A stretch of 64,000 nucleotides of DNA from positions 3,348,001-3,412,000 of the forward strand of contig NZ_CP160453.1 in NCBI RefSeq assembly GCF_040744945.1, in the 5' to 3' direction. The notes beneath the pieces are model-generated. The model was not told the origin of the DNA. It worked only from the letters and a program-made list of their open reading frames with translations, and made no database searches. Source of the stretch: Saccharothrix sp. HUAS TT1 (GTDB taxonomy: Bacteria; Actinomycetota; Actinomycetes; Mycobacteriales; Pseudonocardiaceae). This document shows, one piece after another, positions 8,598-13,680 of the stretch; positions within the stretch are counted from its first letter, which is position 1; the number at the start of each line of letters is the position of its first letter. The position numbers were made by a program, and so were the translations under genes.

Positions 8598-9527
8598 TCA
8601 GCTGGTGATGTCCTTGCGCGCGAACTTCCGCGCCGCCAGCAGGGTGAAGAACGCGCCGAACGCCAGCGCGGAGAACGTGCCCTTCGCCATCTGCGACCAG
8701 TCGACGTCGGACGACAGCAGGTCGGCCCACGCCAGCGCGTAGTGCGTCGGCAGGTAGTTCCGCAGGTCCTCCAGCGCGGTGATCTGGTCGAGGATCTGCG
8801 ACACGATCGACGCCAGCACCGCGCCGCCGACCGCACCGAGCGGCGCGTCCGTCGACACCGACAGGTACAGCGCCAACCCGGCCACCCAGAACAGGTGGAT
8901 CGAGATGTAGACGATCGCCAGCGCGACGCCGTAGACGCCCGACCCGAAGGACGCGGCCTCACCGGTCGGCGAGACCGCCTCACCGGCCCCGTACCAGATC
9001 ACGCCGACGCCGAGCGCCACCGCGGGCAGCAGCGCCAGCGCGAACACCGACATCAGCCCGGACGCCACCGCCTTGCGGCGCAGCAGCCGGTGCCGGGGGA
9101 TGGGCGCGGCCAGCAGGTACTTCAACGACGACCAGGACGCCTCGCTCGCGATCGTGTCGCCGAAGAACAGCGCCACGATCATCGGCAGCAGGAAGCTGCC
9201 GCTGACGAACAGCGTCAGGATCACGAAGTTCACGCCGCTGGCCGTGGCCAGGTCGACGAACCCGCCGGACCGCCGGTTCGGCGACGCCTGGCCCAGCTCG
9301 AACGCCACCACCAGGATGAACGGCAGCAGCACCAGGAAACCCAGCACCAACTGCGTCCGCCGCCGGCGCAACTGCCGCACCAGCTCGACCCGCACCGGCA
9401 GCGTCCGCGACGCCCGGTACCCGACCTTCGACCCGTCCGGCGCGACCGACGACTGCTCGGCCCGCGCCGCGTCGGTCAGGTCGGAGATCGCGGCCGGGTC
9501 GGTGTGCACACCGTTCTCGCTGCTCAT
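8598..9527 (-). CDS. ABC-2 type transporter permease
   Basis: 309 residues. After a cytoplasmic N-terminus of about 60 residues come six hydrophobic segments, beginning with LVLGFLVLLPFILVVAFELG. The motif GDTIASEASWSSLKYLLAAPIPR, in the cytoplasmic loop, is typical of ABC-2 permeases that partner stand-alone ATPases in drug or lipid export. The start ATG at 9527 overlaps the stop of the upstream ATPase gene by 4 nt (ATGA), so the two are translationally coupled and form one transporter. The substrate is unknown. Confidence 0.9.
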   Translation of the reverse strand: MSSENGVHTDPAAISDLTDAARAEQSSVAPDGSKVGYRASRTLPVRVELVRQLRRRRTQLVLGFLVLLPFILVVAFELGQASPNRRSGGFVDLATASGVNFVILTLFVSGSFLLPMIVALFFGDTIASEASWSSLKYLLAAPIPRHRLLRRKAVASGLMSVFALALLPAVALGVGVIWYGAGEAVSPTGEAASFGSGVYGVALAIVYISIHLFWVAGLALYLSVSTDAPLGAVGGAVLASIVSQILDQITALEDLRNYLPTHYALAWADLLSSDVDWSQMAKGTFSALAFGAFFTLLAARKFARKDITS

Positions 9528-12379
9528 TCGCCCACCAACTCCAGGAACGCGTCTTCCAGCCGACGGCGGGGACCGGCCTGGTCCACCGCCACACCCGCGG
9601 CCACGAGGGCCTGCAACGCCGACGCGCGCGGCGTGCCGTTGAGGCTCGCGTGCACCTGCTCGCCGTCCACGTGCACGTCGTGCACGCCGGCCAGGCCGCG
9701 CAGCACGGCGGCCGCCTCCTCCGGCCGGTCGACCCGGAAGCTCGCCTCGCCGCCGCCGGTCGCGATCTCGTCCACCGGACCGGCCGCGACCAGCGAGCCC
9801 TTGTGCATCACGACGACGTGCGTGCACGTCTGCTCGACCTCGGCGAGCAGGTGGGACGACACCAGCACGGTGCGCCCGGCCGCCGCGTACCGGCGCAGCA
9901 CCTCGCGCATCTGGTGGATCTGGGGCGGGTCGAGCCCGTTGGCGGGCTCGTCGAGCACCAGCAGGTCCGGCAGGCCGAGCATGGCCTGGGCGATCGCCAG
10001 CCGCTGCCGCATGCCCTGGCTGTAGGTGCGCACCCGCCGGTGCACGGCGTTGCCCAGCCCGGCGATCTCCAGCGCCTCCTCGACGTGCGCCTGCTCCGGC
10101 GGGCGGCCGGTGGCCGCCCAGTACAGCCGCAGGTTCTCCGCGCCGGACAGGTGCGGCAGGAAGCCGGAGCCCTCCACGAACGACCCGATCCGCGACAGCA
10201 CCGGCGCGCCGGGGGTCACCCGGTGGCCGAACACCCTGATCCCGCCCTCGCTCGGCTGGATCAGGCCCATCAGCATCCGCAGCGTGGTGGTCTTGCCCGC
10301 GCCGTTGGGCCCGAGCAGGCCGAGCACCTGGCCGTGCTCCACCCGGAACGACAGGTCCTTCACCGCGACGAACCCGCCGGGGTAGGACTTGCTCAGGCCC
10401 TCGATCACCAGCGGCACCGACTCCAGCTCCGGGTCGACGTCCGCGACCAGCCTGCGCCGGAACCACGCCACCACGGCCGCGATCACGCAGACGATCAGCA
10501 CGATGCCGATGCCCCACAGCGCGCCGGTCGGCACGTCGCTGGTCGCGTTCACGCCCGGCACCACCGGCACCGACAGCGCGGGCGAGGCCAGCGAGATCCG
10601 GTACGCGGCGGGCTCGGCGGCGTTCGAGTAGGCCATGTCGGTGGTCGACACGACCAGCTGCAGCCGGTGCTCGGCCTCCACCGGGCGCACCGCGCCGGGC
10701 AGCGTCACGGTGACGTCGACCGGCGTGCCGTCGGCGGGCAGGTCCGCCACCCGCACCGGCGCGACGGCCGAGCCGGGCAGCGTGCGCACGCCGTTCGCGT
10801 CCGCGTCGTACAGCTTCACGAACAGCACCGCGCCCTCGGCGGGCACCGGCTGGCCGGGCACCGCGGCCACCCGCAGCCGCACGGTGGACGCGCCGGTCAG
10901 CAGGGTCTGCGCGGTCTGCGGCTCGCTCTGGAACACCGCCGCCTGGCCGGGCATGTCGATCGACAGCCGCGAGGACAGCGAGCTGGACCGCGACACGACC
11001 GAGCCGAGGCCGGGCAGGCTGGACACCGCCGCCGGGTTGCCGCCGGCCGGGTTCACCACCACCTGCTCGCGGCCCGACAGCGGCACGTCGCGGCGCTCGG
11101 TGGCCGCCCCGCCGTTCAGGCCGGGGTAGGCCGGGGCGACGACGGTCCGCAGCGACGGCGTGCCGCTGCTGCGGAACGCGCCGACGACGGTGTACTCGAA
11201 GCCGGTGCCGGGGTCGGCGCCCTCGCCCTCCAGGTGGAACGCCAGCCAGTCGGCGATCTGCCCGCGCAGCTCGGGGCCGGGCGAGCCGCCGTCGTGGCCG
11301 CCCGCGTACCAGACGACCTTGACCTTCGCGCCGTTCGCGGCGATCTGGCGGGCGTTGGCGTCGGCCTGGTCGAGGCCGAACAGGGTGTCCTGCTCGCCCT
11401 GGACCAGCATCGTCGGCTGGGTGATCTTGTTCGTCACGGCGGACGGCGAGGCGCGGCGCAGCACCTCCAGCGTCTGCGGCCCGGCCTTGCCGGTGGTCGC
11501 GACCTCGGTGTACGCGGCGCACACGTCGGCCTGGAAGCGGCCGCACGCGCCGGTCACCGGTCCGGCAGGCCGGGGGTCGCCCTGCTGCGGCGGCGCGGTG
11601 GCCGCGGCGGCGGCGTTGTCCAGGCCCTGGTCGTCGTCGTCCTGACCGGGTTCGCTCGCCTCCTGGCCGGGGTTCGTGGCGTCCGCGCCGGACAGGCCGG
11701 CGGAGAAGAAGATGCCCGCCCACGACCGCTTGAACACGCCGTCGTCGGCGAACGCGCCCGCCGCCGGGGTGGCGCCCGGCACGTCGCCGGCGCGCGCCGA
11801 GTTCGGCAGCAGCGCCTGGGCCAGGTCGTTGTAGGTGATGACCGGGGCGATGGTGTCCACCCGCGGGTCGACGCCCGCCAGCGACAGCGCCAGCGCGCCG
11901 CCGTACGAGCCGCCGGTCACCCCGACCCTCGGGTCGCCGCCGCCGTCGGTGACGACCTCCTCGCGGGTGGCCAGCCAGTCGAGCAGCTTCTGCGCGTCGC
12001 GAACCTCGTGGTCGAGCGAGTTGAGCGCGATCTGCCCGGTGCTGCGGCCGAAGCCGCGCGCCGAGTAGGCCAGCACGACGAACCCGCGCTGGGCCAGCTC
12101 GGTGGCCTGGGCCGCGACGCTCGCCTTGCTGCCGCCGAAGCCGTGCGGCAGCAGGACGGCGGGCGCGGGGGTGCGCTCGGGCAGGTACAGGGTGGTGTCG
12201 ATCTGCACGGTGCGCTCGCTGCCCGGGCTTTCCGGGACGTCGATCACCGCTTCGCGGGTGCCCACCGGGACGGGGTCGTCTCCCTGGCGCGTGAAGACCA
12301 CGATGGCGCCCAACAGGGCGACCAGCACGACGAGCGCGGGGAGCGACCACCTGCCGCGGAGGCGGTTGAGGGAGGCCAC
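9524..12379 (-). CDS. membrane-anchored S15-type hydrolase fused to an ABC transporter ATPase
   Basis: 951 residues with an unusual domain order. A transmembrane segment (about 13-30) is followed by an alpha/beta-hydrolase of the CocE/X-Pro dipeptidyl-peptidase (S15) type with nucleophile Ser158 in GGSYGG. The likely Asp is in QGEQDTLFG and the likely His in GGHDGGS. A PepX_C-like jelly roll (about 400-600) comes next, then a second transmembrane segment (GIGIVLIVCVIAAVVAWF). The ABC ATPase occupies about 650-951, with Walker A GPNGAGKTTT, signature YSQGMRQ and Walker B LLVLDEPANGLDP. With two membrane spans the hydrolase would face outside and the ATPase inside. GTG start at 12379 with AAGG upstream. 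Substrate unknown; processing an exported peptide or ester is inference. Confidence 0.9.
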   Translation of the reverse strand: MASLNRLRGRWSLPALVVLVALLGAIVVFTRQGDDPVPVGTREAVIDVPESPGSERTVQIDTTLYLPERTPAPAVLLPHGFGGSKASVAAQATELAQRGFVVLAYSARGFGRSTGQIALNSLDHEVRDAQKLLDWLATREEVVTDGGGDPRVGVTGGSYGGALALSLAGVDPRVDTIAPVITYNDLAQALLPNSARAGDVPGATPAAGAFADDGVFKRSWAGIFFSAGLSGADATNPGQEASEPGQDDDDQGLDNAAAAATAPPQQGDPRPAGPVTGACGRFQADVCAAYTEVATTGKAGPQTLEVLRRASPSAVTNKITQPTMLVQGEQDTLFGLDQADANARQIAANGAKVKVVWYAGGHDGGSPGPELRGQIADWLAFHLEGEGADPGTGFEYTVVGAFRSSGTPSLRTVVAPAYPGLNGGAATERRDVPLSGREQVVVNPAGGNPAAVSSLPGLGSVVSRSSSLSSRLSIDMPGQAAVFQSEPQTAQTLLTGASTVRLRVAAVPGQPVPAEGAVLFVKLYDADANGVRTLPGSAVAPVRVADLPADGTPVDVTVTLPGAVRPVEAEHRLQLVVSTTDMAYSNAAEPAAYRISLASPALSVPVVPGVNATSDVPTGALWGIGIVLIVCVIAAVVAWFRRRLVADVDPELESVPLVIEGLSKSYPGGFVAVKDLSFRVEHGQVLGLLGPNGAGKTTTLRMLMGLIQPSEGGIRVFGHRVTPGAPVLSRIGSFVEGSGFLPHLSGAENLRLYWAATGRPPEQAHVEEALEIAGLGNAVHRRVRTYSQGMRQRLAIAQAMLGLPDLLVLDEPANGLDPPQIHQMREVLRRYAAAGRTVLVSSHLLAEVEQTCTHVVVMHKGSLVAAGPVDEIATGGGEASFRVDRPEEAAAVLRGLAGVHDVHVDGEQVHASLNGTPRASALQALVAAGVAVDQAGPRRRLEDAFLELVGE

Positions 12380-12528
12380 GGAGTTGACCTTAGGCGTGAT
12401 TGGCTGAGAGCGGGCTGCCGGCGTCGCGGCGGGCTCTCAGCGAAACGCGTCCGTTTTGCGCCGTTCCGGGTGCCTCTGATCACCTCCGCTGGCGCGAACC
12501 CGCACCGGTGCGTGAGACTGTAGTGGCG

Positions 12529-12660
12529 TGGAGGGGAGTACTCCCTCGCGGCGGTGTCGTCAGCACGGAGCCTGGCGTGAGGTTCCCGGTGCCGCCGGTC
12601 GGTCGTCCAAACCGGCGGAGGAGACCTCCGGTCATTGGCGTGCGCGCGATGCACCGGAGG
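12529..12660 (+). ncRNA. yybP-ykoY (Mn2+) riboswitch with ribosome-site-masking platform, upstream of terC
   Basis: The family signatures occur in order. Paired element P1 is GGAGG (12530-12534) with CCTCC (12625-12629). The conserved GGGGAGTA (12533-12540) comes next, then an internal CGTCA (12558-12562) and CCTGGC (12571-12576), and GAGA before the 3' P1 strand. The platform can be read directly: CCTCCGGT (12625-12632) is the exact complement of ACCGGAGG (12653-12660), which contains the terC Shine-Dalgarno sequence. Forming P1 would free that site, giving a translational ON switch with ligand. The family is known to sense Mn2+ and to control TerC/MntP-type genes, which fits the downstream gene. 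Confidence 0.85.
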
Positions 12661-12669
12661 TTTGAGCAG

Positions 12670-13680
12670 ATGTCCGTACCCACGTGGCTGTGGTTCGCCA
12701 CGATCGCCGGCCTGGTGGTCCTCCTGGCCATCGACCTCTTCATCGTCGACCGCAAACCGCACGAGGTCACCATCGGTGAAGCCGCCCGGTGGGTGACCTT
12801 CTACGTGGGTGTCGCGGTCCTGTTCGGCATCGGCATCTGGTACTGGTCGGGTGGTGTCTACGCGGGCGAGTTCTTCGCCGGGTACATCACCGAGTACTCG
12901 CTGAGCGTCGACAACCTGTTCATCTTCCTGATCATCATGACCACCTTCAAGGTGCCGGCGATCCACCAGCACAAGGTGCTGCTGATCGGCATCCTGATGG
13001 CGCTGGTCATGCGCGGCATCTTCATCGCGGTCGGCGCGGCGGTGATCGCGGAGTTCAGCTGGGTCTTCTACCTCTTCGGCGCGTTCCTCATCTACACCGG
13101 CTACAAGCTGGCGCGGACCGACCACAACGAGGAGGAAGAGGAGTACAAGGAGAACGTCGCGCTGCGGCTGGTCCGCAAGGTCTACCCGGTGGCCGACCGC
13201 TACCACGGCGCCAGGTCGTTCGTGAAGATCGACGGCAAGCGGTTCGTCACGCCGATGTTCATCGTCATCGTCGCGATCGGCACCACCGACCTGCTGTTCG
13301 CCCTGGACTCCATCCCGGCGATCTTCGGCCTGACCAAGGAGCCGTTCCTGGTCTTCACCGCGAACGCGTTCGCGCTGATGGGCCTGCGGCAGCTGTACTT
13401 CCTGCTCGGCGGTCTGCTGAACAAGCTGGTGTACCTGTCGATCGGCCTCTCGGTGATCCTGGGCTTCATCGGCGTGAAGCTGATCCTGGAGGCGCTGCAC
13501 ACCAACTCGCTGCCGTTCCTCAACGGCGGTGAGCCGCTGCACGTGCCGACGATCGGCATCGAGTTGTCGCTCTCCGTGATCGTGGGCGTGCTGGTCATCA
13601 CCACCATCGCCAGCCTGGTGAAGGTGAAGCGGCACCCGGAAGCGGTGAAGCAGGTCCCCGCTCCCAGTGACCAAGTGTGA
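12670..13680 (+). CDS. TerC family integral membrane protein
   Basis: 336 residues with about eight to nine transmembrane segments. Family hallmarks are the intramembrane acidic motifs EYSLSVDNLFIF (near residue 75) and TTDLLFALDSIPAIFG, where the conserved Asp residues are thought to bind metal. TerC proteins export Mn2+ or load it into exoproteins and are linked to tellurite resistance. Start ATG 12670 is chosen because GGAGG ends nine bases upstream; an in-frame ATG at 12649 lacks such a site. A yybP-ykoY riboswitch precedes it, supporting Mn2+-dependent expression. The highly charged loop DHNEEEEEYKE is cytoplasmic by prediction. Confidence 0.93.
   Translation: MSVPTWLWFATIAGLVVLLAIDLFIVDRKPHEVTIGEAARWVTFYVGVAVLFGIGIWYWSGGVYAGEFFAGYITEYSLSVDNLFIFLIIMTTFKVPAIHQHKVLLIGILMALVMRGIFIAVGAAVIAEFSWVFYLFGAFLIYTGYKLARTDHNEEEEEYKENVALRLVRKVYPVADRYHGARSFVKIDGKRFVTPMFIVIVAIGTTDLLFALDSIPAIFGLTKEPFLVFTANAFALMGLRQLYFLLGGLLNKLVYLSIGLSVILGFIGVKLILEALHTNSLPFLNGGEPLHVPTIGIELSLSVIVGVLVITTIASLVKVKRHPEAVKQVPAPSDQV

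Follow-up and report, generated by a model that had tools for sequence, protein, structure and literature searches.

A putative compact yybP-ykoY riboswitch lacking P2 ahead of terC in Saccharothrix sp. HUAS TT1

The window, a stretch of 64,000 nucleotides from Saccharothrix sp. HUAS TT1 (host genome 8.7 Mb, two contigs), contains a terC gene whose leader raises a question: does it hold a manganese riboswitch of the yybP-ykoY family, and could that element control translation by passing one strand between two helices? The strings GGAGG, GGAGTA, CGTCA, GAGA and CCTCC, from which the original prediction had recognised the family, were every one located in this order. The leader element occupies positions 12530-12661 of the window, ahead of terC (12670-13680, + strand), with letters checked at these coordinates. 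It is read here, with a probability of about 0.85, as a compact, P2-less member of the yybP-ykoY (Mn2+) riboswitch family that turns translation ON. Papers given by PMC number are cited from excerpts. SD stands for Shine-Dalgarno. The parts of the element and its gene are as follows.

12530..12534, + strand: P1.1 5' strand GGAGG, pairing with 12625-12629 (96.9% of cells paired in 39 sequences; both-side changes in 3 of 5 pairs)
12535..12540, + strand: L1 5' strand GGAGTA, present in 247 of 248 elements (loci without a GGRGTA-like start were removed at the orientation step)
12541..12544, + strand: P1.2 5' strand CTCC, covarying with 12617-12620
12545..12548, + strand: 4-nt linker CTCG at the place of P2 in the known family (from the alignment, the Rfam consensus with P2 and the E. 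coli mntP leader)
12549..12556, + strand: P3.1 5' strand (both-side changes in 7 of 8 pairs)
12557..12566, + strand: L3 TCGTCAGCAC, with CGTCA at 12558-12562 (CGTCA in 237 of 248 elements)
12567..12586, + strand: P3.2 hairpin GGAGCC / GGTTCC, variable (79.7% of cells paired)
12587..12597, + strand: L3 3' side CGG and P3.1 3' strand TGCCGCCG (covariation on 39 sequences)
12598..12616, + strand: P4 hairpin GTCGGT / ACCGGC (both-side changes in 5 of 6 pairs)
12617..12620, + strand: P1.2 3' strand GGAG (covariation with the 5' strand)
12621..12624, + strand: L1 3' strand GAGA, present in 243 of 248 elements
12625..12629, + strand: P1.1 3' strand CCTCC, the common switch strand, in P1.1 or anti-SD (SD complement, covariation, native-versus-swapped test)
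12624..12632, + strand: anti-SD arm ACCTCCGGT, 9-bp complement of 12653-12661 (stem present in the minimum-energy fold)
12653..12661, + strand: SD arm ACCGGAGGT, with SD core GGAGG at 12656-12660 (window letters, complement)
12670..13680, + strand: terC, TerC/Alx family membrane protein of 336 aa (PF03741, 172.5 bits; TIGR03718 R_switched_Alx, 390.2 bits)

The terC start codon is the ATG at 12670-12672, about 290 bases, start to start, from an open frame on the opposite strand (9524-12379). An in-frame ATG upstream at 12649, which would add 7 residues to TerC, was passed over, no SD having been noticed ahead of it. Among the matches listed, the closest named TerC relatives are from Saccharothrix species (93% and 91% identity). 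A12537 in L1 is presumably the predicted A-minor adenosine, its numbering being our assumption. A12562 is the predicted Mn2+-contacting adenosine, with the role taken from the family (PMC6754395) and the register from the alignment of L3.

Conservation was examined in 81 TerC upstream regions, namely the window and 80 loci kept from at least 571 TerC relatives. GGAGTA (L1) and CGTCA (L3) stand at near-constant spacing in 65 of these regions and not in the other 16. The alignment resolves into P1.1, L1, P1.2, P3.1, L3, P3.2 and P4 when read against the solved structures (PMC6754395). P1.2 flanks L1 directly on both strands and is fully paired in 62 of 65 sequences, the candidate with the best P1.2 pairing having been chosen where several GAGA strings were present. 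Its combinations were TCCC/GGGA (27), TTCC/GGAA (20), CTCC/GGAG (9), TTCC/GGGA (5), CTCC/GGAA (2), ACCC/GGGA (1) and CCCC/GGGG (1). In the larger set of 248 elements P1.2 is fully paired in 212, of which 199 use Watson-Crick pairs only, in 10 combinations. Over the whole aptamer (39 sequences), paired cells make up 92.8% and both-side changes occur in 22 of 29 pairs; none of 500 shuffles reaches any of the five measures used. RNAalifold proposed a hairpin of GGGG on YYCC, which was rejected as the aptamer fold since P1.2 formed with the GGRR strand shows covariation, which at one pair holds in all 29 of 29 rows. That hairpin may belong to the OFF state, a similar one being present in the minimum-energy fold of the window. 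CCTGGC, also named as a signature by the original prediction, has to be dropped from the list: it sits in the variable P3.2 hairpin. CCTGG at 13 nt past CGTCA is confined to the window, L001 and L002 among the 81 regions, and L027 has CCTGG 17 nt past it.

The yybP-ykoY family and its Mn2+ ligand are known, and members from L. lactis and X. oryzae have been solved (PMC6754395). Like known members (RF00080), the window has an L1 of GGAGUA, a 3' GAGA strand directly before P1.1 (the L1 3' strand before P1.1 in X. oryzae is GAGACCAGGGAU; PMC6754395), CGUCA in L3, P1.1 as switch helix, P3 and P4, and a cation-exporter gene downstream. It differs from them at P2. Known members have P2 and a four-way junction, whereas elements of the window type, negative with RF00080, have 4-6 bases at the place of that hairpin as located from the Rfam consensus and, by eye, from the mntP leader; in the window these are the 4-nt linker CTCG at 12545-12548. 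GGAGTA is followed by CGTCA or CGACA at a spacing of 22-25 in 226 of 248 elements. Because P2 is replaced by a short linker, P1.2, P3.1 and P4 are predicted to form a three-way junction. To judge from its sequence, the element would be a compact, P2-less variant of the known yybP-ykoY riboswitch, and a naturally trimmed aptamer in which to ask which parts of a Mn2+ sensor docking needs. In L081, an actinobacterial element weakly reached by the Rfam model, an insert could by eye form P2, so the class is not limited to the short form. In the literature covered, including excerpts of PMC8164766 and with subscription papers and preprints outside the scope, no description was found of a P2-less or three-way-junction form or of the actinomycete group. 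An actinobacterial terC leader resembling that of the window by its annotation is the C. glutamicum leader of terC (cg2157), which was annotated as RF00080 in 2013 with 49.13 bits in an older Rfam and has an observed transcription start (PMC3890552). Two yybP-ykoY motifs are mentioned in a further study of C. glutamicum (PMC4046766).

The original prediction had proposed an Infernal search with the Rfam yybP-ykoY model as a check, and this search gave no support: RF00080 returned nothing at its gathering threshold anywhere in the window, nothing in the element's own genome, and nothing in 12400-12760 even with E relaxed to 10. Matches to sX9 and flavi_FSE in 12400-12760 lay far below their own cut-offs and were discarded. 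As a refutation the Rfam verdict was set aside, since the known E. coli mntP leader (L325:798-902) also falls below the gathering cut-off of RF00080 in Rfam 15, which makes the negative weak evidence. A covariance model (R1) was trained on 39 of the 65 TerC leaders, and its E-values are rough (short calibration). R1 matches were obtained in 175 of 296 genomes of the actinomycete class, 79 of 80 genomes of the family and 56 of 296 of the phylum, where the searched genomes may include the model's sequences or near relatives. RF00080 passes its cut-off in 0 of the 296 class genomes and reaches E 0.001 in 7; cmscan with it gave 0 matches in 20 R1-positive loci at E up to 1. R1 recovers all 7 loci weakly reached by RF00080, giving 6 of them more than 50 bits. 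On the 16 TerC regions without the motif pair, R1 found nothing convincing (best E 0.09). With filters off on a 1,695-base E. coli locus, the best of 14 R1 matches was the mntP leader, with the L1 strands in register as in the window (a modest 15.3 bits, E 0.005). R1 thus meets the known family at a leader where RF00080 misses its cut-off, which indicates that the Rfam threshold is strict. Unlike the window, the mntP leader has by eye a hairpin at the place of P2, and it precedes mntP, not terC. Close relatives of the element are common in actinomycetes though the standard RNA-family model misses them, so that, with R1 matches in 175 of 296 genomes against 0 over the RF00080 cut-off, a common form of the riboswitch has been left unseen. 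A search for the pattern GGAGTA-N14..22-CGTCA-N40..70-GAGAC gave one site in the window and none in 100 shuffles of it; genome-wide (8.7 Mb) there are 4 sites, against 0 for a reversed control pattern. Two of the 4 sites are R1 matches, one scores 13.0 bits (E 0.18) and one has no match.

The second half of the question concerns the SD. An exact 8-nt complement between an extended P1 3' strand and the SD region had been described, and CCTCCGGT (12625-12632) and ACCGGAGG (12653-12660) do match exactly; the length needs correction, the true complement running over 9 bases, from 12624-12632 to the SD-bearing 12653-12661. Among the 65 loci, 57 (58 when L036 is counted by eye) have 7 or more Watson-Crick pairs between this strand and the SD; 59 of 65 rows show at least 7 such pairs overall, the arm in L017 and L019 not being the SD. 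The remaining 7 of 65 loci are from Pseudonocardia and have no continuous 7-pair SD helix; by eye the helix looks split. In these seven leaders (L014, L016, L017, L019, L020, L023 and L031) the aptamer is kept and P1.1 and the anti-SD arm differ, and by eye an outer CCT(C)-SD pairing encloses an inner hairpin.

CCTCC and GGAGG are under constraints of their own, so the SD stem was tested on the letters that vary. Over 29 sequences it reaches 96.5% pairing, with both-side changes in one pair only. For the larger tests L139, L161 and L165, which were short or could not be clearly oriented, were dropped, so that 153 loci remained, 140 of them unique; the element set comprised 204 elements, 203 distinct, and 201 after removal of L156 and L219, which have no usable start. 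For the permutation test the SD was placed by start codon and GGAGG likeness only, and 20 of the 201 elements were left out. Pairing beat permutation at positions 4, 6 and 8 (native value reached in 1, 0 and 0 of 2,000) and less so at 9 (16), with no excess at positions 5 and 7 (692 and 105 of 2,000). The native duplex energy lay below all 1,000 permutations (3 of 201 elements left out); permutations of this kind correct for relatedness only in part. Of 66 non-modal arms, only 24 fit their own SD better than a modal arm would, with the CCTCG group as a clear exception.

A free register was then allowed, which gives swapped controls an equal search (L268 left out). Mean scores over 248 elements were 7.27 for native arms, 6.16 for swapped arms and 4.04 for shuffled regions, a baseline that preserves base composition only. 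Over 152 non-redundant representatives, one per 6-mer cluster of the 248, which lessens relatedness and does not remove it, native arms scored 7.01 versus 5.78 for swapped, and 0 of 500 swaps exceeded 5.96; the position table used the 124 of 152 representatives with a score of at least 5. Five loci with their arms and SD strands are given below.

L111: arm/SD CCTTCGGTC/GACCGAAGG, P1.1 5' strand GAAGG
L230: arm/SD CCTTGTG/CACAAGG, P1.1 5' strand CAAGG
L212: arm/SD CCTCCAGGC/GCCTGGAGG
L324: arm/SD CCTCCAACC/GGTTGGAGG
L309: arm/SD CCTCGAACG/CGTTCGAGG, P1.1 5' strand CGAGG

In L111, L230 and L309 all three strands depart jointly from the common form. Compensatory changes in relatives support the P1.1 3' strand as common to the aptamer and the SD-masking stem, though not at every position. 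The switch mechanism can in this way be read from strands that change together.

Gene context was taken from 184 distinct elements found with the RNA model; the further 64 of the 248 were found through TerC and are uninformative on this point. By tblastn, the downstream genes are 156 TerC, 7 P-type ATPase, 4 GDT1 and 1 CaCA exchanger; the rest comprise 2 lipoproteins, 6 members of two families without a Pfam match and 8 loci with nothing recognised. Queries for the non-TerC classes came from the same loci, and confirmation by Pfam is limited to examples of GDT1, P-type ATPase and CaCA. Cation-exporter families thus stand behind 168 of 184 RNA-selected elements, and four unrelated cation-transporter families downstream fit a metal sensor. 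With this context, L1 and L3 conserved and P1.1, P1.2, P3.1, P3.2 and P4 covarying, the assignment of the aptamer to the yybP-ykoY type is upheld. Computation establishes the conservation and covariation of the aptamer, the common strand, the covarying SD stem and the exporter context.

Two exclusive folds had been postulated, P1 formed with the ribosome site free or P1 open with the site masked. The exclusivity is supported by the common, compensated strand; a plain equilibrium between the folds is insufficient, the OFF fold being predicted more stable by about 10-16 kcal/mol. The difference is 15.9 kcal/mol for 12526-12672 and 9.6 for 12530-12675, with a median of 12.5 over 39 relatives. When the aptamer is forced, the SD core is 0.88-0.97 unpaired in 12526-12672 but 0.21 in the longer stretch 12530-12675; forcing raises SD exposure in 36 of 39 relatives, though the gain exceeds 0.5 in only 22. 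Given this stability of the OFF fold, the switch has to act during transcription or draw on tertiary contacts. An equilibrium ligand would hardly pay such an energy, so the aptamer would have to be caught while transcription is under way. For the L. lactis member, folding of P1.1 has been shown to be linked to transcription (PMC11087558).

The proposed mechanism would run as follows. The aptamer, with its predicted three-way junction of P1.2, P3.1 and P4, would fold before the SD is transcribed. Mn2+ would dock L1 on L3 and hold P1.1 (12530-12534 with 12625-12629) closed, the SD at 12656-12660 would stay free, and TerC, a predicted metal exporter, would be made. Without Mn2+, P1.1 would open, the CCTCC strand would extend into the 9-bp stem 12624-12632/12653-12661, and the SD would be masked. 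Mn2+ as ligand, the docking of L1 on L3 and the direction of control are inferred from the solved family members. The ON mechanism appears to be of a known kind that can be read from the sequence with unusual ease; for the E. coli mntP leader, Mn2+ switches translation initiation on (PMC9603457).

The aptamer and switch could be right and Mn2+ still not be the main input, with alkaline pH, another divalent metal or transcription speed deciding and Mn2+ contributing. Full activation of E. coli mntP needs Mn2+ together with alkaline pH, and pH likewise affects the alx leader (PMC9603457); the TerC of the window belongs to the Alx subfamily, and the large OFF bias makes timing important. A metal signal is favoured by the retention of the L1 and L3 letters that build the metal site and by downstream genes from several cation-exporter families, and a main input other than Mn2+ is considered unlikely. 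Control of transcription by an intrinsic terminator or Rho, with the SD stem as a side effect, has a precedent in other family members that act by a terminator (PMC6754395, PMC11087558). It is judged very improbable here: no terminator-like site was found in 12370-12800, and the alternative to P1.1 is a stem that includes the SD and covaries with it. Chance, by which GC-rich sequence would yield an accidental SD complement and motif matches, draws on the complementarity that CCTCC and GGAGG have anyway (hence the high score of swapped arms) and on the silence of RF00080, but is contradicted by leader conservation in 65 of 81 regions, by covariation and by native arms scoring above swapped ones, and can be dismissed.

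The translational ON riboswitch thus remains the preferred reading for the leader of terC. Whether it stands for a wider group is put at about even odds: actinomycetes would carry a distinct compact Mn2+ riboswitch subclass in which P2 was lost and L1-L3 docking proceeds from a three-way junction. Its default would be a strongly favoured SD-masking stem, making it a one-shot co-transcriptional sensor in high-GC RNA, and it would control exporters as well as a small lipoprotein gene and unnamed genes so far without a link to manganese. The same genome contains a second R1 element (contig C1 7894492-7894587, minus strand; L089:1501-1596) with 71.6 bits and an SD stem of CCTCTGGTTC/GAACCGGAGG. 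The gene behind it encodes a 131-aa lipoprotein-like protein without a Pfam match, whose relatives are named bacteriophage spanin2 family by NCBI; a similar element precedes the gene in 6 of 11 homolog loci scanned, its own included. Two more TerC genes of the genome (C1 6285244-6285855 and 3961755-3962363; L331, L332) gave no R1 match at E up to 10 in the flanks searched. R1 elements also stand ahead of two unnamed protein families, SRLxxLASKALDK-like (L128, L129, L227, L237) and MDVFxxGRFGL-like (L167, L204), and in L316 ahead of another lipoprotein-like gene; of these proteins, those scanned with Pfam (L128, L129, L204, L316) gave no match. If control by Mn2+ is true, the lipoprotein and the two Pfam-less families become candidates for manganese biology. 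In L083, L084 and L085, elements with GTCGACA in L3 precede GDT1-like genes; an RNase P RNA gene lies adjacent on the opposite strand, and a long hairpin stands just before the start codon.
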